This document shows, piece by piece, positions 5,663-23,259 of a DNA stretch of 32,618 nt. The DNA comes from a virus. The translations under genes were made by a program, and so were the position numbers. The notes below the pieces were generated by a model that made no database searches, was not told the DNA's origin, and saw only the letters and a list, made by a program, of their open reading frames with translations. Where the stretch lies: IMG/VR virus record IMGVR_UViG_3300043602_000155, positions 1-32,618 of that record, one strand, 5' to 3'. Positions within the stretch are counted from its first letter, which is position 1. The number at the start of each line of letters is the position of its first letter.

Positions 5663-5877
5663 ACCTCTACCTCGAAAGCGAGGGCAGAGGCGGCGGCGTG
5701 CCGGACTGGTATAGCTTTTTGCGGGCCGCGCGCTATCTGGGCGTGGCGCCGTGGGAGTTGCTGGCGCAGCAGCCGGCCTGGTTTTATCTGGCGCTGGAAA
5801 GCGAACAGGCGGAAATTCATGGCGAGAACAAACGGGCAGAGAAGCGACAGCGCAAATCTAGCAGGCACAGAACATGA
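5641..5877 (+). CDS. tail assembly chaperone, frameshift extension (GT-type)
   Basis: After the slip, the -1 frame reads PAQVRALNLYLESEGRGGG, then VPDWYSFLRAARYLGVAPWE and LLAQQPAWFYLALESEQAEI, ending in a lysine/arginine-rich tail and TGA 5875-5877. The W...L......GVAPWELL...P.W pattern is characteristic of the second tail chaperone of siphoviruses. It has no start codon with a ribosome site of its own, so it should be made as an approximately 192-residue fusion with the upstream 114 codons. The stop overlaps the tape measure ATG (ATGA). Confidence 0.87.
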   Translation, partial: PAQVRALNLYLESEGRGGGVPDWYSFLRAARYLGVAPWELLAQQPAWFYLALESEQAEIHGENKRAEKRQRKSSRHRT

Positions 5878-8459
5878 CCATTACTGCTGCTGAACTTGCG
5901 GTCAAGGTCACAGCCGATACATCCGCCGCCGAGAGCGGGCTGAAATCCTTCTCCGGCAAAATGGACAGCATGGCGGGGCAGATGGCCGGCGTGGGCGGTG
6001 TGCTTTCGGCCACTATCGGCGCGCCGCTGATTGGCATCGGCGTCAGCGCCATCAAGACGGCGGCCGGCTTTGAGCGCAGCATGAACGTGCTCGGCTATGC
6101 CTCGAATGCCACCGGCGACCAAATGCAGGCGATGAGCGACCTGGCTTTGCAGCTTGGCGCCGATACCGTATTTAGCGCCAACGAAGCGGCCGAGGGCATG
6201 GTTGATTTAGCCAAGGCGGGCATGGATACGCAAGAGGTGATGGACTCGATACCCGGCGTGATGGACTTGGCGGCAGCCGGCGCCATCAGCGTCAGCGATG
6301 CCGCAACCTTGACGGCGGCCACGCTCAACACCTTTGGCCTTGATGCCGCCGAGTCGGCCAAGGTGGCGGACGTCTTAGCGGCGGCCGCCAATGCCTCGGC
6401 GGCTGACATCTCCGACCTTGCTTACGGCGTGCAGAATGCCGGTTCGGTCTTTGCCACCAACGGCCAAAGTGTGGAAACACTGGCGACGATGATGGCGCTA
6501 CTCGCCAACAACGGCCTCAATGCCAGCGACGCTGCAACCAGCCTCAAGACGATGACGATGCGCCTGACCGCACCGACCGCCGCCGCCTCAAAGGTGATGA
6601 AGCAACTCGGTATCAACGTCTTCAACGCCGACGGCAGTATGCGTGATTACCACGACATCATCGGTGACATTGCCTCGGCAGCCAAGGGCATGTCCGACGC
6701 CCAGCGTGACGCCGCCTTTAACACGCTCTTTGGCGCCGACGCCATCCGCGCCGCCAACATCATGGCCGAAGAAGGCACCGCCGGCTATGAGGCGATGAAG
6801 ACCGCCGTCGAAGAACAGGGTGCGGCCTCCGAGATGGCGAACGCCCAGAATAGCGGCTTGGCCGGTGCAATGGAGCAGATTAGCGGCAGCATTGACAGCT
6901 TGATGACCAAGCTCGCCTTGCCTTTCCTCGACACCATTTCCGGCTGGATGGGCGGCTTGACCGATTTCGTCAACCAGTTGGGCGACCTGCCGCAGCCGGT
7001 AATCAACGCCTCGCTGGCTTTCTTGGGCTTTGCCGCCGCGGTCGGTGCGGTACTCTTGGCGGCAGCGGGCATTGCCACCGTGATCGGCGCCTTGGCAACA
7101 CCGATTGGCTTGGTTGCCTTGGTCGTGTTGGGTCTGGCGGCTGCCGTGGCCGCGCTGTGGCTGGCCTGGGAAACCAATTGGGGCAACATCCAGGGCAAGA
7201 CGGCGGCGGTGCTGGCGGTGATCCAGCCGTTGATTGAGACGCTGAGCAGCACGCTAAGCGGCATCGGCACCAGCCTGTCCACCTTTAAGATGCCGACGCT
7301 GACCGACTTAGGGAAGCTCAAGAGCGATATTGAATTCCAAATCAAGGCCACGGTCGAGACGCTGCTCGACCCGCCCAAGCTGACGATCATGCCTTTTCCC
7401 GACATGACGATTGACCCGCCCAAAGTGACGATCAAGCCCATACCGCAGGCGGCGATCACGGAGGCGGCCAAAGGCCCCGGATTGATGATCGACAACTTGA
7501 CGCAGACGATTGCGGGCGGCAACTGGGCGGGGGCCGGACGCTTGATGGGGACGCTGATCATCGCTCGCTGGAATACGGAAATCGCCAAGATTGAGCCATT
7601 TATCACCTTTATCGAAATCGCCGGCGCCTTTAGTCAGGCGATCCTCGGACTGCAAGGGGCCATGCTGGTGGCGCTGATCGGCTTCAGCTTGGCGCTGGAG
7701 GGAACCGGCCTGCCCGCCAAGATTGCGGCGCTCGGCGAGGCGATTGCGACGGCGGTCACGACCATGTGGACAAACCTGATGGCGACGGTCATGGGCGCCT
7801 TTATTGCGCCGGCGCCCGACAACACTTCCACCTCCGACACCCTGCGTGACCGCGCCGCCGCCAGCAGCTTTAAGTGGTCGGATTATATCCAGCCTTTGGT
7901 GTGGACGAGCTTTGTGCCGGACTTCGTTTGGTCAATCTTCGTGACGCCGCTGGACTGGGTGCTTTGGATTGCCAATCTGACCTGGTCAACCTTTGTCTCG
8001 GCTTTAGAGTGGGCGAGTTGGATTTCGACCTTTGACTGGGGAAGCTTTATCTCCGGCCTCAGTTGGCCGAGCTTTATCACGAGCCTATCCTGGGGAACCT
8101 TTATCTCCAGTCTGAGTTGGGCAACCTTTATCTCCAGCCTGAGCTGGTCGAGCTTTATCCCGGAAATGTCGTGGGCGAACTTTATTCCGCACATCGATTG
8201 GGGCCGCTTCATCCCCGCCTTTTCTCCGCCAAGCGTTTCGCCAGACGGGCCACAGCAAGACAATTTACAGAAAAAAAAGGATGACGCTACTATCGGCTTC
8301 GTGACAGCGGGCGCCTCATTCGCCACGGCGAGCTATGGCGGCGGCAGGGGAAACGGCGGGCCAACCATCGTTATCCAAAACGTCAACGTGCATAACGACA
8401 TGGATATCGAGGTGCTGGCGGGCAAGCTGGCGCGTCGTTTCCAGCAGAAGTTGAGATAA
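5874..8459 (+). CDS. tail tape measure protein
   Basis: The 861-residue product sets tail length and is ejected with DNA. Residues 1-360 match the TP901-type tape measure core: SGLKSFSGKMDSMAGQMAG, IKTAAGFERSMNVLG, LGADTVFSANEAAEGMVDLA and LLANNGLNASDAATSLKTMT. Residues about 370-435 form a long hydrophobic stretch (FLGFAAAVGAVLLAAAGIAT onwards), with a second near 583-610. Residues 666-782 are thirteen nine-residue repeats with one tryptophan each. The C-terminus is glycine-rich then helical. The ATG lies in an ATGA overlap with the chaperone extension. It is short for the family, which predicts a short tail if the helical scale of about 1.5 angstrom per residue holds. Confidence 0.93.
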   Translation: MTITAAELAVKVTADTSAAESGLKSFSGKMDSMAGQMAGVGGVLSATIGAPLIGIGVSAIKTAAGFERSMNVLGYASNATGDQMQAMSDLALQLGADTVFSANEAAEGMVDLAKAGMDTQEVMDSIPGVMDLAAAGAISVSDAATLTAATLNTFGLDAAESAKVADVLAAAANASAADISDLAYGVQNAGSVFATNGQSVETLATMMALLANNGLNASDAATSLKTMTMRLTAPTAAASKVMKQLGINVFNADGSMRDYHDIIGDIASAAKGMSDAQRDAAFNTLFGADAIRAANIMAEEGTAGYEAMKTAVEEQGAASEMANAQNSGLAGAMEQISGSIDSLMTKLALPFLDTISGWMGGLTDFVNQLGDLPQPVINASLAFLGFAAAVGAVLLAAAGIATVIGALATPIGLVALVVLGLAAAVAALWLAWETNWGNIQGKTAAVLAVIQPLIETLSSTLSGIGTSLSTFKMPTLTDLGKLKSDIEFQIKATVETLLDPPKLTIMPFPDMTIDPPKVTIKPIPQAAITEAAKGPGLMIDNLTQTIAGGNWAGAGRLMGTLIIARWNTEIAKIEPFITFIEIAGAFSQAILGLQGAMLVALIGFSLALEGTGLPAKIAALGEAIATAVTTMWTNLMATVMGAFIAPAPDNTSTSDTLRDRAAASSFKWSDYIQPLVWTSFVPDFVWSIFVTPLDWVLWIANLTWSTFVSALEWASWISTFDWGSFISGLSWPSFITSLSWGTFISSLSWATFISSLSWSSFIPEMSWANFIPHIDWGRFIPAFSPPSVSPDGPQQDNLQKKKDDATIGFVTAGASFATASYGGGRGNGGPTIVIQNVNVHNDMDIEVLAGKLARRFQQKLR
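7869..8219 (+). repeat. thirteen 27-bp units encoding Trp nonapeptides
   Basis: Thirteen consecutive nonapeptides run FKWSDYIQP, LVWTSFVPD, FVWSIFVTP, LDWVLWIAN, LTWSTFVSA, LEWASWIST, FDWGSFISG, LSWPSFITS, LSWGTFISS, LSWATFISS, LSWSSFIPE, MSWANFIPH, IDWGRFIPA. The pattern is hydrophobic-x-W-x-x-(F/W/Y)-(I/V)-x-x. DNA identity is highest in the middle units, suggesting recent copying there. The phase is unbroken and ends just before a Pro/Ser-rich stretch. Confidence 0.93.
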
Positions 8460-11670: not shown

Positions 11671-14600
11671 ATGCCGAGTAACAAAGCATCCTCACAGGCT
11701 GACCTGCTCTACCCCTATTTGCTCAAACGCTTCCAACGATTCTTTGGCAACGGGCATGGCGGCGGCGGCAGCGCCGTTAGCGGCGGGCGGCTGGCGACTT
11801 TGCAGGATGTCAATCTCGGCACGCTCACGGACGGCCAGGTGCTGACCTATGACGGCACGACGGCGATGTGGCGCAACGAGGATGCGACCGGCGGCAGCGG
11901 TGGCGGGCCGACCTACATTGCCGGCAACGGCATTGACATCAGCGGCACGACGATCTCGACCAAGCACGACACGGTGGGCGGGATAGGTGCGACGAGCGCC
12001 GGGTTGTATCTCAAGAAGCCCTCCGACAGCGGCCTCATCCTCGATAGTACGGGCGTCAAGATTGGGGCCGGCGTCGGATTGGATGTGCTGGGCAACTTTG
12101 TCAGCGTCGATGCGACCGAGATCACCGACACGACCAGAGGGCTTGGCGTCAACTCCAACCTGATCTATGTGCGGACGGAGGCGGGCGGCGGCATCGAGTT
12201 TGCCGGCGACGGTTCCGTGCGCGTTGACGAGGACGCCGACTTTTTGTGGACAGGCACGCACCAGTTTAACAGCCCTGTGCAGATGCATACTGACATCAAC
12301 TTTATCGCCGCCGACCGCCAGTTTACCAGCAGCGCCGGCATCGACGTCACCTGGAATCTGGGCGGCGACCTGATGCTGGCCTCGGCCAAGACCGAGCGCA
12401 GCACCGATTACCTCGACGGCATCCCGATTAACGGCTATAGCTTACATATCAACAGCGGCGGCTTCCGCCAGTTGACGACGCACGCCATCAAGGCCGACGA
12501 GCTGCACGTCCGCACCTTCATCGCCGACACCGTGCGCGTCGACGTCGGTGAAGAGTACTGGGGAAAGTCGATGGGTATCGTCTACCAGGACTTTACCGTG
12601 CCTGCCATCGGCGCCACCGTCGCCGTCACCTTTGAGGATTCGGTGGCGCTGGTCGGTGCGCTCTTTGCCAATGGCGACTGGATCATGATCTCGTCGGTCG
12701 AAGTCGGCACCGGGCTTGAGGTCAACCAGCTATGGGGCCAGGTCAGCGGCTATGTGCCTTTGGCGGCTGACATCAACGGCATTACCCGCCAGCGCTGGAC
12801 GTATACGCACCGCGCAGGCACGCCCGGCATCGTCGTCAAGAAGGGGCGGCTGGCGGTGGACTTTGGCGTCAGCGGGCAGGGCTATGTCCACCTCAGCACG
12901 CTCGACAGCGCCGACGGGCCGTGGATTCGTATTGGCGACTGGACGGGCGCCAACCCTTACGCGGCGGGCAACAGCCACATCCGCACGCAGATCGGCCTGC
13001 TCGACGGCATCGGCGACGCCGACCTCAACCCCACGGGCTGGGGCTTGTACAGCGACAACGCCTATCTACACGGCATGTTACGCACTGCCGAGACGGTGCT
13101 GGACGATGACGGGCTGGCGATTCTGATGCCGACCTTGCCGGGTGGTTGGGCGCCGGGCATTCACTCCGAGATTGCCTGGTGGTTCGATGTACTGGATCGC
13201 AGCGCCAATCCTCCGGCCAGCATTGCCGGCTATCAGCTCGATACCGGTTCGCCGCCGGTCTCGAATCGCCTTGAGCTGGAGGTGAGAAAGACCGATGACG
13301 CCGATTACTCCTATCTGAGCCTCAACGCCACCGATGACGGCGGGCCGATTGGCTCTACCAATATCCGTCTGGTGAGTACGGGCAATATCTATGTAGAGGC
13401 TGATCTTGGCGTCATCTTCGAGGGCGCGGTGCTGCCTGAGTTCGATGTGACCTTTGACCTCGGCAGCGCCTCGAAACGCTGGCGCAATCTGTACATTGAC
13501 CATCTCTTTGTCAGCGGCACGATTGCCGGTGATACCTTGTCGGGCGCTGAGTGGGAATATCCGGGCAGCATGATCATCGACGCCCACGCCGCCACCCCAA
13601 CCGTTGTCAGCGTCACCAATCAGGGCAGCGGCACAGCCTCGCTGGATGTCGAGGGCAACATCACGCTCGGCGGCACCGTGGACGGCATCGACATCAGCGC
13701 CCATGCCGCCAACCCTGCCGCCCATCATGCGCTGGCGACGGCCGGTGACGGGCTGCTCATTACAGGCCAGCAGCTACGCGTTGACCCGCTCTTGGCCGGT
13801 GGCGGCTTGACCTATACGGCGGGCGGCATCCTGGCCGTCGGCGCAGGTTCCGGTATCGTCGTCGCCGCCAACAGCATCGCCATCGACCCAAGCTATGCCA
13901 TGCCGACCACGCGCCGCGTCGATACCGCTGCTCCGCTAACCGGCGGCGGCGAGTTGAGCGTTGACCTCACGCTGGGCTTGACCCTTGCGCCGGCGGGCGG
14001 GCTGGGTATCACGGGCGGGCTGGGCTTGGCGCCGAGCGTCGCCGGTGACGGCCTGACCTTGACGGCAGGCGTCTTGGCGGTCGGCGTCGGTGCGGGGCTG
14101 GTGGCTGGTGCTGATGCCGTGACACTGGCCGCGACTTTGGCCGGCGCCGGCTTGACCTTGACAACCGGTGTGCTGGCGGTTGGGGCCGGTGATGGGCTGG
14201 TCGCCAATGCCGATACGATGGCGCTCGACCCGCTGGTGGGCGGCGCGGGGCTGACCTATACGGCGGGTGTGTTGGCGGTTGGGGCCGGTGATGGGCTGGT
14301 CGCCAATGCCGATACGATGGCGCTCGACCCGCTGGTGGGCGGCGCGGGGCTGACCTATACGGCGGGTGTGTTGGCGGTTGGCACGGGCGTGGGTATCCAG
14401 GTCAACGCCAACGACATCCAGATTGTGCTGGCCTCGCCATCCGGCCTCAACACGACCAGCGGGCTGGCAATCGATGCGGCGCTTGCCGGTGCGGGTCTGG
14501 CGCTGAGCGCAGCCAAAGCCTTGAGCGTCAACGCCGCCAAAGGCGTCAAGATTGGCGCCGGCGCTGACGTGGACAATGTGATTGTCGATACCGCCTATAA

Positions 14601-17475
14601 CTTCACCTGGACGGGCACGCACCAGTTTGACAGCAATGTCAAGCTCAACGCCGGCCTCGACTTTATCGGCAGCACGCGTAGCATTACCTCGCCGGCGGCT
14701 ACCAATCTGAGCATCATCCCCGGCGGCGACCTCATCCTCGACCCTGGCGGCTTCAACGTCTTGCCGGGCGGCGGCACGCGCACCGATTTCGGCGACTACA
14801 ACCGCAAATGGGCAACCATCTATGCCCGCGAACTCTACGTCGAGACGCTGGTTGCCAGTTCGGTGATGGCGACGATTGGCGGGCGCATCATGGTCACGCC
14901 GACCAGCAGTTTGATTAGCGACATCACGGCAGGGCAGACGACCATCGACCTCAAGCACAACGTCGCCAGTTTCACGACCGGCACCTACTTGTATCTGGAG
15001 AGCGCACCGGGCGGCGTGGCGCAGATTGAGGCGATGAAGATTACGAGCGCCACGCCAACGGCGGTGACAGGGCCGCCGGCGGGCTGGCGCTATACGGTGA
15101 CGCGTGGGCTGAATACGAGCGGGGCAAAGACATGGCTGGCCGGCGATGCCGTGGTCAGCCTCGGCGCCACCACCAGCGAGGGCTACATCGACCTAGCCAG
15201 CGTGCAGACGGTCAAGCCGATCTCACCGACGGTGCAGAAGGTCGGCCCGACCATCACCATCTACAGCCGCTCGGCCACGACCAACTGGGATGACCTGGTG
15301 CCGACGGTGACGATGGGCAACCTGACCAGCTTTGTCGATTATTCCTCGACGCGCTATGGCTTTGCCACCGGCAACGATTTGACGAAAGCGCCGGATGATC
15401 CGAGTACGCCCTTCATCGGCATGACAGCCGACCGCGTGAACGGTATGCGCCTCTTTAATACGCCCCTCAACCTCTACAACGTCGGCAACGCCATTCTCAG
15501 CATCGACAAGGTCAACGGCATTTCCTTTGAGTTTGGCACGGCGCTCTTCAACACGATTGGCTGGTATGAGGATTTGGGTATCCCGCCGACGGCGCCGCTG
15601 GTCGCCAAGCTGCTGGGCACGGTCGGCGTCTCGCGCGCCACGGCGACCTATACCGAGCTTGACCTGGTGGCGCAGGGCATCGCCGGCAGCAACACGTTGG
15701 GGGCGGTGCGGCTGCGCGCCATCAACTCGACCACCGTCGCCTACAACCTGTGGCTGGACAGCAGCGGCGCCTATTTCGGCACCGGCGCAGCGTCGGCCGC
15801 CCGACCCAGTTCGGGCGGCTTTATTACGGATGCGATCCAATACCTGAGCGGCAACGTCGGCATCGGCGCCAGCGACCCATACAGCCACCTGGAAGTTCAC
15901 TCGACCAGTGCGGCGGCGGAGCGTGGGTTGACGGTCAGCCAGGTCAGCAACAACACCTTCACGCCTGTACTCGCCTTGCAAAAGGCCAGGGGGACGCGGG
16001 CATCCAAGACCATTGTCGCCGATGGCGATTACTTCGGTTCAATGCAGGGCTACGCCTGGGATGGGGCAGCGTGGGTTCCTCCAGCAGGCATTGTCTTTCA
16101 AGTGGACGGCACGCCGGCAGCAGGAGCCATCCCTGGCAAGATTCTGTTTCAAACAGGCTTGACCGTCCAATCCGGCAAGATGGTGCTTGACGCCAACGGC
16201 AACCTCGGCATTGGCAATCTGTCGCCAGCACAAATTCTCGACATATCGCGAAATGTCGCCGGCGGCTTAACTGCCCTGATTCGCAACACCAGCACGGGCA
16301 CGACGGCGGCAGCAACGTGGCGGTCGCAAAACGACTTAGGTACTTCCACCTATGAAGCGGGCATCGTCAGCAGCCTCTTTGCGGGTGGTGCAGGAGCCTT
16401 GCAGGCGGGCGATGCCTACGTGCAAGGCAACACGACTCGTTTAGTTTTGAGAACGGTTGGCGCGGGCCAGGACATACTCTTAGCCACCGGCAACGTCGAG
16501 CGCATGAGGCTCGACGCAGCTACAGGATTCGCCAGTATCGGCGGTCTTGCTTCGCCCACCCATACCTTGCACGTCTATTCAAACAACACGGCGATTGCCG
16601 GAGTCGGCATCGTGATCCAGCAAGCGGGCGCGGGGGACGCTCGCCTACAATTTACGCAGCAGACGACGAATTGGACGATTGGCATCGACGGCAGTTTAGG
16701 CGATTCCTTCTCGGTTTCGCCCAGCACCGACCTCAGCACAGCAACGGGCTTGACGGTCAAAACAACGGGATTTACGGGCATTAACAACTCGGCTCCTGGT
16801 GCGCTCTTGCATCTTGGGACTTTGACGCCCACGCTGAACACTAATGCCAACGGCATTTGGATTGCGCCAAATGCGACCGTCGCCAATCTTCACCTGAAAA
16901 GCTCAGGTGCGGAAGGTGGATTGTTCCTGCATTCCACTAACGTTGGCTATGTAGGAACATGGACAAATCACAATTTTGTTCTCCGTACCAACAACCTCGA
17001 CCGCCTGGCGATCAGCGCGGCGGGAACGGTGACGATCAGTACGGGTCTCTTGCAAGCCTTTCAGGGCATCAACCTCGGCAACACGACACTGAGCGACTAC
17101 GCTGAGACGCCCGTCGCCTATACGCCTGTGGTCAGCGCAACGACGACAGCGCCCACAGTTGGCTATGGGACTCGCTATGGCAACTATACGCGCATCGGCA
17201 ACATGGTCATGTTCAACGCCTACATTCCCGTTACCTCTCGCTCAGGCGGTACGGGCAACATGACGGTTTCGCTGCCGCCGAGCCAACCAGCGCGCGCTGG
17301 CACGACGCAGATTATCAGCGCCGCCTACTTTGACGGCACGATTTGGAACACGACGAAGGCAACTTTACGCACGAGCGATTGCACCGTTGGCGCAGGTGCC
17401 AACGGTGCCGACTTAACCATCGCCAATGTACTGGCGGGCCATACCGTCGCCGTTTGGGGCACTTATTTCCTATAG
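11671..17475 (+). CDS. long tail fibre / receptor-binding protein
   Basis: The 1,934-residue product is the largest in the window. A glycine-rich N-terminus with SGGRLATLQDVNLGTLTDGQ is typical of fibre attachment regions. Module 1 (near residue 190) and module 2 (near 977) both carry WTGTHQF followed by a strand-rich block ending in GGDL, so the fibre contains an internal duplication. Residues about 690-950 are degenerate glycine-rich repeats (GAGLTYTAGVLAVGAGDGL), with two units identical at DNA level. Further on come NVGIGASDPYSHLEV and NLGIGNLSPAQILDI, motifs of trimeric shaft regions. The last ~125 residues (VAYTPVVSATTTAPTVGYG, NYTRIGNMVMFNAYIPVTS) match fibre-tip knobs. It should bind the host surface. 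Confidence 0.88.
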   Translation: MPSNKASSQADLLYPYLLKRFQRFFGNGHGGGGSAVSGGRLATLQDVNLGTLTDGQVLTYDGTTAMWRNEDATGGSGGGPTYIAGNGIDISGTTISTKHDTVGGIGATSAGLYLKKPSDSGLILDSTGVKIGAGVGLDVLGNFVSVDATEITDTTRGLGVNSNLIYVRTEAGGGIEFAGDGSVRVDEDADFLWTGTHQFNSPVQMHTDINFIAADRQFTSSAGIDVTWNLGGDLMLASAKTERSTDYLDGIPINGYSLHINSGGFRQLTTHAIKADELHVRTFIADTVRVDVGEEYWGKSMGIVYQDFTVPAIGATVAVTFEDSVALVGALFANGDWIMISSVEVGTGLEVNQLWGQVSGYVPLAADINGITRQRWTYTHRAGTPGIVVKKGRLAVDFGVSGQGYVHLSTLDSADGPWIRIGDWTGANPYAAGNSHIRTQIGLLDGIGDADLNPTGWGLYSDNAYLHGMLRTAETVLDDDGLAILMPTLPGGWAPGIHSEIAWWFDVLDRSANPPASIAGYQLDTGSPPVSNRLELEVRKTDDADYSYLSLNATDDGGPIGSTNIRLVSTGNIYVEADLGVIFEGAVLPEFDVTFDLGSASKRWRNLYIDHLFVSGTIAGDTLSGAEWEYPGSMIIDAHAATPTVVSVTNQGSGTASLDVEGNITLGGTVDGIDISAHAANPAAHHALATAGDGLLITGQQLRVDPLLAGGGLTYTAGGILAVGAGSGIVVAANSIAIDPSYAMPTTRRVDTAAPLTGGGELSVDLTLGLTLAPAGGLGITGGLGLAPSVAGDGLTLTAGVLAVGVGAGLVAGADAVTLAATLAGAGLTLTTGVLAVGAGDGLVANADTMALDPLVGGAGLTYTAGVLAVGAGDGLVANADTMALDPLVGGAGLTYTAGVLAVGTGVGIQVNANDIQIVLASPSGLNTTSGLAIDAALAGAGLALSAAKALSVNAAKGVKIGAGADVDNVIVDTAYNFTWTGTHQFDSNVKLNAGLDFIGSTRSITSPAATNLSIIPGGDLILDPGGFNVLPGGGTRTDFGDYNRKWATIYARELYVETLVASSVMATIGGRIMVTPTSSLISDITAGQTTIDLKHNVASFTTGTYLYLESAPGGVAQIEAMKITSATPTAVTGPPAGWRYTVTRGLNTSGAKTWLAGDAVVSLGATTSEGYIDLASVQTVKPISPTVQKVGPTITIYSRSATTNWDDLVPTVTMGNLTSFVDYSSTRYGFATGNDLTKAPDDPSTPFIGMTADRVNGMRLFNTPLNLYNVGNAILSIDKVNGISFEFGTALFNTIGWYEDLGIPPTAPLVAKLLGTVGVSRATATYTELDLVAQGIAGSNTLGAVRLRAINSTTVAYNLWLDSSGAYFGTGAASAARPSSGGFITDAIQYLSGNVGIGASDPYSHLEVHSTSAAAERGLTVSQVSNNTFTPVLALQKARGTRASKTIVADGDYFGSMQGYAWDGAAWVPPAGIVFQVDGTPAAGAIPGKILFQTGLTVQSGKMVLDANGNLGIGNLSPAQILDISRNVAGGLTALIRNTSTGTTAAATWRSQNDLGTSTYEAGIVSSLFAGGAGALQAGDAYVQGNTTRLVLRTVGAGQDILLATGNVERMRLDAATGFASIGGLASPTHTLHVYSNNTAIAGVGIVIQQAGAGDARLQFTQQTTNWTIGIDGSLGDSFSVSPSTDLSTATGLTVKTTGFTGINNSAPGALLHLGTLTPTLNTNANGIWIAPNATVANLHLKSSGAEGGLFLHSTNVGYVGTWTNHNFVLRTNNLDRLAISAAGTVTISTGLLQAFQGINLGNTTLSDYAETPVAYTPVVSATTTAPTVGYGTRYGNYTRIGNMVMFNAYIPVTSRSGGTGNMTVSLPPSQPARAGTTQIISAAYFDGTIWNTTKATLRTSDCTVGAGANGADLTIANVLAGHTVAVWGTYFL
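14174..14371 (+). repeat. exact 99-bp tandem duplication inside the fibre gene
   Basis: Copy 1 is 14174-14272 and copy 2 is 14273-14371, with no mismatch seen. The period is 33 codons, so frame is kept. A third, diverging unit begins at 14372 with TGGCGGTTG, and weaker copies lie upstream from about 13790. The protein unit includes GDGLVANADTMALDPLVGGA. Confidence 0.95.
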
Positions 17476-21124: not shown

Positions 21125-21177
21125 CGTATTTCCTCTTTCCTGCTCCGCTTGCGCCCGTTGCGCTTGCCGTTGAATGT

Positions 21178-21206
21178 ATTCTAGCGTATTTGATTGTATA
21201 TGTCAA
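21178..21206 (-). promoter_or_regulatory. leftward sigma-70-like promoter
   Basis: Read on the minus strand, TTGACA (complement of 21201-21206) is followed after 17 bases by TAGAAT (complement of 21178-21183). This is a near-consensus promoter about 55 bases upstream of the leftward gene at 21124. Confidence 0.75.
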
Positions 21207-21242
21207 TTATCAATATTGACAGTTTATACTATTTGATTGTAT
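21187..21242 (+). repeat. operator candidates: 13-bp direct repeat and inverted repeat
   Basis: TATTTGATTGTAT occurs at 21187-21199 and again at 21230-21242, one copy in the spacer of each promoter. Between them, TGTCAAT at 21201-21207 and ATTGACA at 21215-21221 form an inverted repeat that contains both -35 boxes. The arrangement suits a regulator that controls both promoters together. Confidence 0.7.
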
Positions 21243-21245
21243 GCT
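21216..21245 (+). promoter_or_regulatory. rightward sigma-70-like promoter
   Basis: TTGACA at 21216-21221, an 18-base spacer and TATGCT at 21240-21245 form a good promoter for the HTH gene at 21291. A TATACT at 21245-21250 could serve as an alternative but at poor spacing. Confidence 0.7.
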
Positions 21246-21290
21246 ATACTTGTTCCGAGTATGAAGTTAACCACGAAGGGAGATTGAGGC

Positions 21291-21491
21291 ATGACACAGC
21301 AGTTGATGACCGTAGATGAAGTGGCAGACTATTTGCAGCTCAACCGGCAAACCATTTCACGGATGGCGCAGCGCGGCGAGTTGCCAGCCGTGAAGATTGG
21401 CCGGCACTGGCGTTTTCGTCGGGAGACACTGGATCGGTATTTGGACGAAGAAGCTGCAAAAACGTTGACCCTCATCGGAGCAACGGCGTAA
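21291..21491 (+). CDS. excisionase-family HTH DNA-binding protein
   Basis: The 66-residue product is essentially one winged-helix domain: LMTVDEVADYLQLNRQTISR, then MAQRGELPAVKIGRHWRF and RRETLDRYLDEEA. This is the HTH_17/excisionase pattern, with a recognition helix and a wing in which K-I-G-x-x-W-R-F is highly typical. AGGGAG lies upstream. It may be an Xis-like factor or a small transcription regulator of the divergent promoters at 21178-21245. No integrase lies nearby, so a regulatory role is at least as likely as excision. It has its own promoter and a terminator right after. Confidence 0.9.
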   Translation: MTQQLMTVDEVADYLQLNRQTISRMAQRGELPAVKIGRHWRFRRETLDRYLDEEAAKTLTLIGATA

Positions 21492-21636: not shown

Positions 21637-21744
21637 TAGCGCATAGGGGATTCGAACCCCTGTCTTTGCCGTGAGAGAGCTATAGAGGGAAATGCTTTGC
21701 CCTGTCAAGGCAAAGCACTCTAATCCACGCTCCAAACTACGCTA
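21637..21744 (-). ncRNA. tRNA-like element (T-arm and acceptor stem, atypical body)
   Basis: On the minus strand the ends pair as an acceptor stem (TAGCGTA with TGCGCTA, one G-T pair). A perfect T-arm is present: AGGGG, TTCGAAT, CCCCT (21643-21659). A 9-bp stem TGCTTTGCC/GGCAAAGCA with the seven-base loop TTGACAG sits where the anticodon arm should be, formally giving GAC. But the D-arm is wobble-rich, a 35-base segment separates the anticodon arm from the T-arm, and one extra base sits beside the acceptor. Total 108 bases is too long for a normal tRNA. It could be a degenerate phage tRNA, a tRNA mimic, or an attachment-site remnant. Confidence 0.45.
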
Positions 21745-22001
21745 TCGGAAGCCAGCGAAACCGGCGAGATTAAATCCTTGCGAATGTCATCGACATCGAG
21801 CAGCGCATACTCCGCCGTCATCGAATAGCTGGCCGTTCTGAGCTGGGCGGCGCTGCTGGTCATCGTGACCGCGATTTGGGCAAAACGAGAGTGGTAAATA
21901 ATACGCCCCGGCGCCGATTCAGGCCGGCAGCCAGGGCATTCACAACAAGAATAATGACTAGGAGAAGTGTAGCATGGGTAGACGTATGTTGGACAATTCA
22001 T
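21720..22001 (-). CDS. possible small zinc-ribbon-like protein
   Basis: From an ATG at 22001 this leftward frame encodes MNCPTYVYPCYTSPSHYSC followed by CECPGC and a plausible C-terminal half (YALLDVDDIRKDLISPVSLA). It would fill an otherwise empty 230-base gap and be followed by a hairpin (TGCTTTGCC/GGCAAAGCA). Against it: no ribosome site, overlap with the start of the rightward initiator gene and with the tRNA-like element. A shorter start at MTSSAAQLRTASYSM is possible. Weak call. Confidence 0.28.
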   Translation of the reverse strand: MNCPTYVYPCYTSPSHYSCCECPGCRPESAPGRIIYHSRFAQIAVTMTSSAAQLRTASYSMTAEYALLDVDDIRKDLISPVSLASDSVVWSVD

Positions 22002-22927
22002 TGTGGAGTAACGAGAATTTTGCGGCATTGCCGCCGCGTGGACGCCTGTTGCAGATAGGCATGATCACGATTGCCGATGACCAGGGCCGGCTCAAGGCGC
22101 ATCCGCTTTTTCTCGCCAAAGAAATCTTTCCCTACGATCATATGGAGGCGAGCGACGTTAGCAAATGGCTGGCGCTGATGGAGCAAAACGGCACGATCCA
22201 GTTGTATACGGTAGACGGCAAACAGTACGCCCAATTCCTCAACTGGTGGGATTACCAGTCGCTACAGTTCGCCCACGCCTCCAGCTATCCGCGCCCGGAT
22301 GGTTGGCAGGATCGCCTGCGCTTTAACAGCAAGGGCAATCAAATGATGGTTAGTAACTGGACGACGCCCAAAGGCGATAGGCTGGTTGATACCTGTGATC
22401 AGGAGGGGAAACTGTTCCCTTTCGTCATGGAGCTGCCCGTCAATCGGGCGGCTAACTCGACTGACAAAGTACCTACTAAAGTACGTACTTTAGTACCTAC
22501 CCAAGCACCTACTGAGGCACGTACCCAAGTAACTTCTCAACTTCCCAACTACCAACTACCAACTAAAGAAGAAGAAGGAGAGAGCAACGGCGCTAAAGCG
22601 CCCGCCCGCCCGCCTTCCTTGAAAGATCATCCGCTGATAAGAGCATTCTATGAACAGCACAACAGATACCCGAACAGAGAGCAGATGGCGGAAATTGTGA
22701 GGCTCAATCCGCCGCTGCCCGATTGGATACGCGCCATCCATGCCTGGGCAATGGCCGGCAACAGGCCGACCAACGTCCAGGGGATGCTCGATTGGGCCTT
22801 TGACCCGGCGCGCTTTGAAGACCATCATGCGCCGGCCAAAGCTGCCGGCAAGGAGCAGCACAAGACGGGCTACGGCGACTACAATTATCTGTTGGCGCCG
22901 CTGCCGGATCGGGATGCCCAGCCATGA
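21974..22927 (+). CDS. replication initiator / replisome organiser-like protein
   Basis: The 317-residue product opens MGRRMLDNSLWSNENFAALP, then RGRLLQIGMITIADDQGRLK and VSKWLALMEQNGTIQLYTVD, and QFLNWWDYQSLQFAHASSYP: the N-terminal winged-helix domain common in phage replication initiators. Residues about 165-195 are a linker of tetrapeptides (KVPT, KVRT, LVPT, QAPT, EART) encoded by DNA iterons. A helical C-terminal domain (HPLIRAFYEQHNRYPNREQM, ending TGYGDYNYLLAPLPD) probably contacts the helicase or loader. AGGAGA lies 9 bases before the start. It should bind the iterons and start replication; the initiator role is inferred. Confidence 0.75.
   Translation: MGRRMLDNSLWSNENFAALPPRGRLLQIGMITIADDQGRLKAHPLFLAKEIFPYDHMEASDVSKWLALMEQNGTIQLYTVDGKQYAQFLNWWDYQSLQFAHASSYPRPDGWQDRLRFNSKGNQMMVSNWTTPKGDRLVDTCDQEGKLFPFVMELPVNRAANSTDKVPTKVRTLVPTQAPTEARTQVTSQLPNYQLPTKEEEGESNGAKAPARPPSLKDHPLIRAFYEQHNRYPNREQMAEIVRLNPPLPDWIRAIHAWAMAGNRPTNVQGMLDWAFDPARFEDHHAPAKAAGKEQHKTGYGDYNYLLAPLPDRDAQP
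22466..22537 (+). repeat. six contiguous 12-bp iterons, candidate replication origin
   Basis: Six head-to-tail 12-mers occupy 22466-22537: AAAGTACCTACT, AAAGTACGTACT, TTAGTACCTACC, CAAGCACCTACT, GAGGCACGTACC, CAAGTAACTTCT. Units 1-3 are closest. AAAGTACGTACTTT at 22478-22491 is a perfect palindrome. Directly after come short AACTACC repeats and a purine-rich run to about 22585, which is locally less GC-rich than the flanks. The array lies in the middle of the initiator gene, as in lambda O. Confidence 0.82.
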
Positions 22928-23259
22928 CCACCTCGCACATCTACTACGCCTATACCGAGGCCGGCACGCCGCAGACGGTCTGGGCCTACAATGGCGGCAG
23001 CACACGCCGCGCCGCCGTGGTCTATGCCTGCCACATGCGCGACCCCATGTACGAGCGTGAGCCGGCGCCTGACGAGCTGCGGCTGATTGTCGAATACTGC
23101 GAACACTTCATCAACGCGCCGTGCTGGGTATTCCCGGCGGATGAGATTCGCCTCTTGCGCCTGAGCATCCTGCGCGTGCGGACGACCGAGCAGTTGACCG
23201 GCTGGCTGTGGCTGTGCGGCGAGATTGGGCTGGGGCCGGTGCTGGGGGTGACGCTGTGA
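22924..23259 (+). CDS. hypothetical protein downstream of the initiator
   Basis: The 111-residue product begins in an ATGA overlap with the initiator gene: MTTSHIYYAYTEAGTPQTVW. A strand-rich start is followed by helices with charged and aromatic residues (ELRLIVEYCEHFINAPCWVF, RLLRLSILRVRTTEQLTGWL). Four cysteines are spread through it without a clear metal-site spacing. Coupling to the initiator suggests a replication accessory such as a loader, but no Walker motif is present and the protein is too short for an ATPase. It overlaps the next gene by 4 bases (GTGA). Confidence 0.6.
   Translation: MTTSHIYYAYTEAGTPQTVWAYNGGSTRRAAVVYACHMRDPMYEREPAPDELRLIVEYCEHFINAPCWVFPADEIRLLRLSILRVRTTEQLTGWLWLCGEIGLGPVLGVTL

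Follow-up and report, generated by a model that had tools for sequence, protein, structure and literature searches.

A candidate replication origin of 12-bp iterons inside the gene of a phage initiator, and tandem repeats at the same place across its initiator family

A replication origin placed inside the gene of its own initiator is an already known kind of origin. In lambda ori, the iterons lie in the middle of gene O, between the parts encoding the DNA-binding N-terminus and the C-terminus, and are followed by an AT-richer stretch; Stx phages have six iterons against four, with 13 extra residues in the protein (PMC7466680). The oriL of phage SPP1, located in gene 38, is composed of direct repeats and an AT-rich unwinding element and is bound by gp38 (PMC6316719). 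For both lambda O and SPP1 gp38, the initiator binds the repeats and opens the DNA, and a helicase is recruited, at an origin in the initiator gene (PMC7466680, PMC6316719). For the extrachromosomal mycobacteriophages Miko, Rachaly, and Jeeves, repA was likewise suspected to contain the origin, similarly to lambda; their RepA is described as related to plasmid RepA of the pMAB23/pMSC262 type, with a helix-turn-helix at residues 95-132, and no repeats were found (PMC7157519).

A stretch of viral DNA of 32,618 nucleotides (IMG/VR record IMGVR_UViG_3300043602_000155, positions 1 to 32,618; hereafter the window) was analyzed, where an array of 12-bp units was found within a predicted replication initiator gene. 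The array very probably represents the initiator-binding part of the phage replication origin, within the gene of the initiator that would bind it. In the window, DNA-constrained direct repeats lie between the DNA-binding and C-terminal parts of the initiator, as in known origins of this kind. As in the ori of lambda and the Stx phages, the family of the window's initiator has iterons in the middle of the gene, with a unit number that varies between relatives and lengthens the protein, and the direct repeats inside the initiator gene liken the window to SPP1 oriL by layout. The lambda iterons, however, are four 18-bp units spaced at 20-24 bp, whereas those of the window are gap-free 12-bp units and those of its family follow an 11-bp spacing. 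In addition, no P-like loader was recognized in the window, unlike lambda, and no gene 39/40-like loader or helicase was seen in it, unlike SPP1. The family was compared with mycobacteriophage RepA by description only, where no repeats were reported in repA (PMC7157519). The features of the locus are as follows.

21974-22927, plus strand: predicted replication initiator gene, 317 aa (phrog_1408 and further PHROG replication-initiation families)
21974-22258, plus strand: predicted N-terminal winged-helix DNA-binding domain, residues 1-95 (AlphaFold2 pLDDT 84-98; winged-helix matches in the PDB)
22307-22363, plus strand: clade-specific beta-hairpin extension, residues 112-130 (AlphaFold2 strands 112-117 and 124-130)
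22466-22537, plus strand: putative iteron array, six gap-free 12-bp units, consensus NAAGYACSTACY (repeat finding, shuffles, motif scan)
22478-22491, no strand: 14-bp perfect palindrome AAAGTACGTACTTT, formed by unit 2 and two bases of unit 3, one of four in the window
22545-22565, plus strand: three copies of the 7-bp direct repeat CCAACTA (AACTACC), candidate second block (3.0 copies, 100%)
22565-22584, plus strand: 20-nt purine run, right part of the candidate unwinding region (from the sequence)
22619-22816, plus strand: C-terminal helical region, residues 216-281 (AlphaFold2 helices 220-281; unrelated sequence in the relative L017)

A near-identical record (G001; L105-L108) matches the window at 99.93% over 6.95 kb, continues past its end, and re-enters its start. 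Because this record runs across the ends of the window, the genome is taken to be circularly closed or permuted, at about 39.5 kb. The record adds about 6.9 kb beyond the window, which encode a terminase, a portal, a ParB-like protein, and an HMC-glucosyltransferase-like protein, and its identity is only 91-94% around the start of the window. Several other features were observed in the window. A tRNA-like sequence on the minus strand (21637-21719), located between an excisionase-like ORF (21291-21488) and the initiator gene, has a well-kept T-arm and 3' end, matches Rfam RF00005 at 29.7 bits (gathering threshold 29), and was uncalled by ARAGORN; it may be what remains of a tRNA gene that contains an attachment site. 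The most AT-rich 100-bp stretch of the window (21166-21270, 73%) lies just upstream of the excisionase-like ORF and is a possible early control region. The ORF at 32006-32494 matches QueT (Pfam PF06177, E = 1.3e-24), a phage-borne queuosine-precursor transporter, and two DNA methylase genes are found nearby. A 99-bp direct repeat at 14167-14381 (2.2 copies, 99% match), within a 1934-aa ORF (11671-17475), is a recent duplication, while repeats of 27, 54, and 81 bp occur at 8036-8185 inside the tape-measure gene (5874-8459).

The N-terminal domain encoded by the initiator ORF was matched by several PHROG profiles named replication initiation protein, which include phrog_1408 (E = 1.5e-19, the best match), phrog_16167 (1.2e-16), phrog_2149 (6.7e-15), and phrog_12556 (3.8e-14). 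These profile matches and the shared N-terminal domain point to membership of the window protein in this replication initiation family. Searches of the same ORF against Pfam and NCBIfam gave no match. In an AlphaFold2 model based on a 65-row alignment, a winged helix was predicted at about residues 8-95 with a core pLDDT of 95-98. The PDB neighbors of the N-terminal model were winged-helix proteins with Z up to 7.9, none of them close, and the viral structures of BFVD that matched the initiator model were named replisome organizer or replication protein. The beta hairpin is common to the window protein and the relative L003 by alignment, and was also found by sequence in L017 and L020. The pLDDT fell below 50 at residues 132-163, 165-175, and 185-209. 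This low-confidence region spans about 75 residues, includes the array, and is predicted to form a disordered linker. The model thus agrees with an earlier sequence-only reading of this DNA, which had placed the array in the linker between the DNA-binding and C-terminal domains.

The C-terminal helical region is probably the part that would recruit a helicase. A single-sequence model of it was of low confidence and gave no useful fold match, and its only relative found among viral contigs was the near-identical record. The region may be DnaD-like, as suggested by eye, but no BLAST match to TP901-1 Rep was obtained. By hhalign, no homology of the initiator to TP901-1 Rep or lambda O was detected (for lambda O, probability 0.02%, E = 0.98). 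The proposed lambda-O arrangement in an unrelated protein is supported by this lack of sequence relation and by a positive control, in which the same pipeline recovered the known iterons of lambda O (P = 0.002) while gene P gave no repeat.

The array is composed of the units AAAGTACCTACT, AAAGTACGTACT, TTAGTACCTACC, CAAGCACCTACT, GAGGCACGTACC, and CAAGTAACTTCT, in this order and with a period of 12, exactly the six gap-free units that had been claimed at 22466-22537. These are translated into KVPT, KVRT, LVPT, QAPT, EART, and QVTS, corresponding to residues 165-188 of the protein. The sixth unit, CAAGTAACTTCT, is degenerate and still scores 12.4 bits in the unit matrix. Allowing at most one mismatch, the motif AAGYACSTACY has eight matches in the window, six of them inside the array, where 1.3 +/- 1.2 were expected, and none of 100 shuffles reached eight matches. 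Scans with the motif and the unit matrix found no second cluster elsewhere in the 32.6-kb window. The 14-bp palindrome AAAGTACGTACTTT, to which attention had also been drawn, is real and perfect, but it is nothing special: since the window has four such palindromes and about two are expected (32618/4^7), the palindrome alone was rejected as evidence for an origin.

A comparison with relatives had been proposed, to see whether the number of units differs while the rest is conserved, and such a case was found in L017/L018. Their N-terminus is 81% identical to that of the window and their C-terminus is unrelated, and they contain 12.5 units of the window's 12-bp consensus versus six in the window. 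Over 18 units of the window and L017, the only invariant columns are A at position 6 and T at position 9 (18/18 each). Both are third codon positions, in codons that encode Val/Ala/Leu and Pro/Arg/Thr/Gly/Ala, respectively. The third-position GC content is 0.125 in the array versus 0.74 in the genes of the phage, where the codons of the array are rare (GTA in 34 of 455 Val codons, CCT in 49 of 382 Pro codons). Identity at a 12-bp lag in the window was 40/60 versus 32.5 +/- 2.2 in gene-wide synonymous shuffles (P = 7.5e-4), and the same test gave P = 5e-5 in both L017 and L003/L019. Codon permutation confined to the array was not significant; with nearly a single codon set in use there, this permutation is uninformative. 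In L003, with an N-terminus 54% identical to that of the window, the corresponding position is occupied by five 12-bp units with a sequence of their own (AATCCACCTGGA, encoding NPPG), followed by GATCAA repeats.

These observations bear on an explanation at the protein level, in which a flexible linker rich in proline and threonine has grown by 12-bp replication slippage and the DNA is without a role. Slippage would be compatible with a linker predicted to be disordered, a unit length that is a multiple of three, tolerant peptides, and a varying copy number. It accounts poorly, however, for invariant columns that are synonymous and use phage-rare codons while the residues vary, for repeats that synonymous shuffles do not reproduce, and for the periods seen at the same place in relatives, many of which are not multiples of three. 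Slippage alone is considered very unlikely.

The reading of the array as part of an origin was further examined across the initiator family. The first set included 72 full-length, deduplicated relatives, and the codons of each gene were shuffled among themselves. A tandem DNA repeat beyond synonymous shuffling (P <= 0.05) was found in 62 of the 72, in comparison to 11 of the 104 control ORFs taken from the same loci. The repeat lay at residues 105-215 in 98% of these 62 relatives, and its period was not a multiple of three in 31 of them. Within the upstream portion of the linker, 7-mers were repeated at a lag of 11 bp in 33 of the 72 genes versus 2.4 expected, with harmonics at 22 bp (17 versus 1.6) and 33 bp (16 versus 4.6); this analysis was defined on gene nucleotides 310-560, by which the window's array (nucleotides 493-564) is incompletely covered. 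The 11-bp lag was seen on this first set and then checked on 43 deduplicated, independent relatives from other queries. It was present in 24 of the 43, where 0.92 were expected and the maximum of 50 shuffles was four, and 41 of the 43 had a repeat beyond synonymous shuffles. A spacing of 11 bp is not divisible into whole codons and hence cannot derive from repeats of the peptide; in length it approximates a turn of the helix. The claimed shaping of the coding sequence by the origin is supported by the third-position invariance, the synonymous-shuffle tests, and the out-of-frame spacing in the family.

The iteron spacing is 11 bp in the family as a whole and 12 bp in the window's clade. Units of 12 bp are in frame with the codons, and hence the putative origin of this clade reads as tetrapeptide repeats. 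The clade with the 12-bp spacing (the window, L017, L003, and L020) also has the N-terminal hairpin extension (GWxDRxR...NW, 22307-22363), and a larger footprint per bound protein, resulting from this extension, could be the reason for the 12-bp spacing.

Judging from their sequences, more than 100 related phages appear to have the same kind of origin at the same place of the gene. Iteron-like words were located upstream of a block of short repeats in 26 genes and downstream of it in six, and the second block in relatives consists of 5-8-bp repeats such as GGAACAGG, GATTCCT, and GGAAA. Linker repeats at the same place as in the window were found in proteins of PHROG 1408, 2149, 16167, and 12556, which include those of HK639, Che8, Purky, JBD44, and the Streptomyces Austintatious group. 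Most of these members have 11-bp iterons followed by repeats of 5-8 bp (GGAACAGG or GATTCCT, for example), while the window's clade has 12-bp units and the beta-hairpin extension. Octamer repeats of GGAACAGG occur in the initiator linkers of many actinobacterial phages (L006, L015, L112-L190), and are preceded by TCGCGAG-type 11-bp units in several of them. These linkers are candidate origins for well-studied mycobacteriophages.

The repeat sequence was found to follow the N-terminal domain. Over 114 genes, the sharing of repeated 6-mers among pairs with unrelated C-termini increased from 2.5% at an N-terminal identity below 30% to 86% at an identity above 75%, and the curve was similar in pairs with related C-termini. 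The pair of the window and L017 was not scored as sharing iterons in this test, though the consensus is common to both, because of the same limited coverage of the linker. The repeats thus go with the DNA-binding domain, as expected of its binding sites; linkage of neighboring sequence could alone suffice for this pattern, and its contribution is inseparable here.

Repeats that follow the N-terminal domain would also be found if the array bound the same protein for autoregulation, incompatibility, or copy control, and not for the start of replication, and an intragenic roadblock could repress downstream genes. However, an operator would not usually be located 490 nt into the gene, the adjoining block, strongly AT-rich in L017 and L003, fits an origin, and the lambda and SPP1 precedents are origins (PMC7466680, PMC6316719). 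A purely regulatory array is thus given very little probability. It is highly improbable that the array serves another protein, either as a centromere-like ParB-type array or as a recombination hot spot for the swapping of C-terminal domains. Although a ParB-like protein is encoded in the near-identical record, in its part beyond the window, the ParB-like matches overlap methyltransferase/nuclease families, and over the 114 genes the sequence of the array varies with the N-terminal domain of the initiator itself. The C-termini are indeed swapped directly after the array, but such swapping at the linker would result from the layout itself.

An origin would also be expected to include a region of unwinding, for which the sequence-only reading had suggested the AACTACC repeats and the purine run. 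Both are present, and the AACTACC repeat exceeded synonymous shuffles (P < 0.01) and matches the short-repeat block in the layout of the relatives. However, the 60 bp after the array are only moderately AT-rich in the window (55%, versus 45% in the gene and 40% in the whole window), in comparison to 75% in L017 and 70% in L003. In these two relatives, the least stable 50-mer of the gene starts within 2 nt of the array end. In the window, the 50-mers starting at 22452 and 22527 were among the 11 least stable, and stretches that are AT-richer than the post-array region were found at 21.2 and 24.7 kb. In the family at large, the average composition of the second, short-repeat block is not AT-rich, and thus does not support an AT-rich unwinding block as a family-wide feature. 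Cumulative GC skew, which had been proposed as a check, was computed on the window plus the missing stretch from the near-identical record, and over this circle of about 39.5 kb it showed no extremum or turn near 22.5 kb; skew is a weak test for phages.

Taken as an origin of the lambda-O/SPP1 type in a different initiator family, with iterons spaced by about a helical turn (12 bp in this clade), the locus suggests the following mechanism. The six iterons would be occupied by adjacent N-terminal domains, roughly one for each turn of the helix, and the resulting nucleoprotein array would strain and melt the DNA at its right-hand edge, at about 22527-22585. The C-terminal region would then recruit the replicative helicase. 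This is probably the helicase of the host, because no phage helicase or loader was recognized in the scanned ORFs, including the next ORF (22924-23259), with about 7 kb of the genome located outside the window. More tentatively, this large and widespread family may define a separate type of origin that follows rules other than those of lambda and SPP1. In such an origin, the arrays on 11-bp iterons (12-bp in this clade) in the initiator's own gene would contact a second block of 5-8-bp repeats that is not simply AT-rich, and that perhaps provides sequence-specific single-strand sites for the melted strand, a role comparable to that of DnaA-trios.

No report of an origin for this initiator family was found in the open-access papers searched, with most subscription journals outside the search. 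New with respect to this open-access literature are the initiator family, the helical-turn spacing of 11/12 bp, the two-block layout, and the spread over many phage groups. The family includes the initiators of cultured phages, such as HK639, Che8, Purky, Pseudomonas phage JBD44, and many Gordonia and Mycobacterium phages. If the reading is true, the origins of hundreds of phages would be readable straight from the initiator gene, and iteron specificity could be paired with winged-helix sequence in more than 100 natural examples. It would also clearly exemplify how a function of the DNA can dictate the amino acids of a protein linker.
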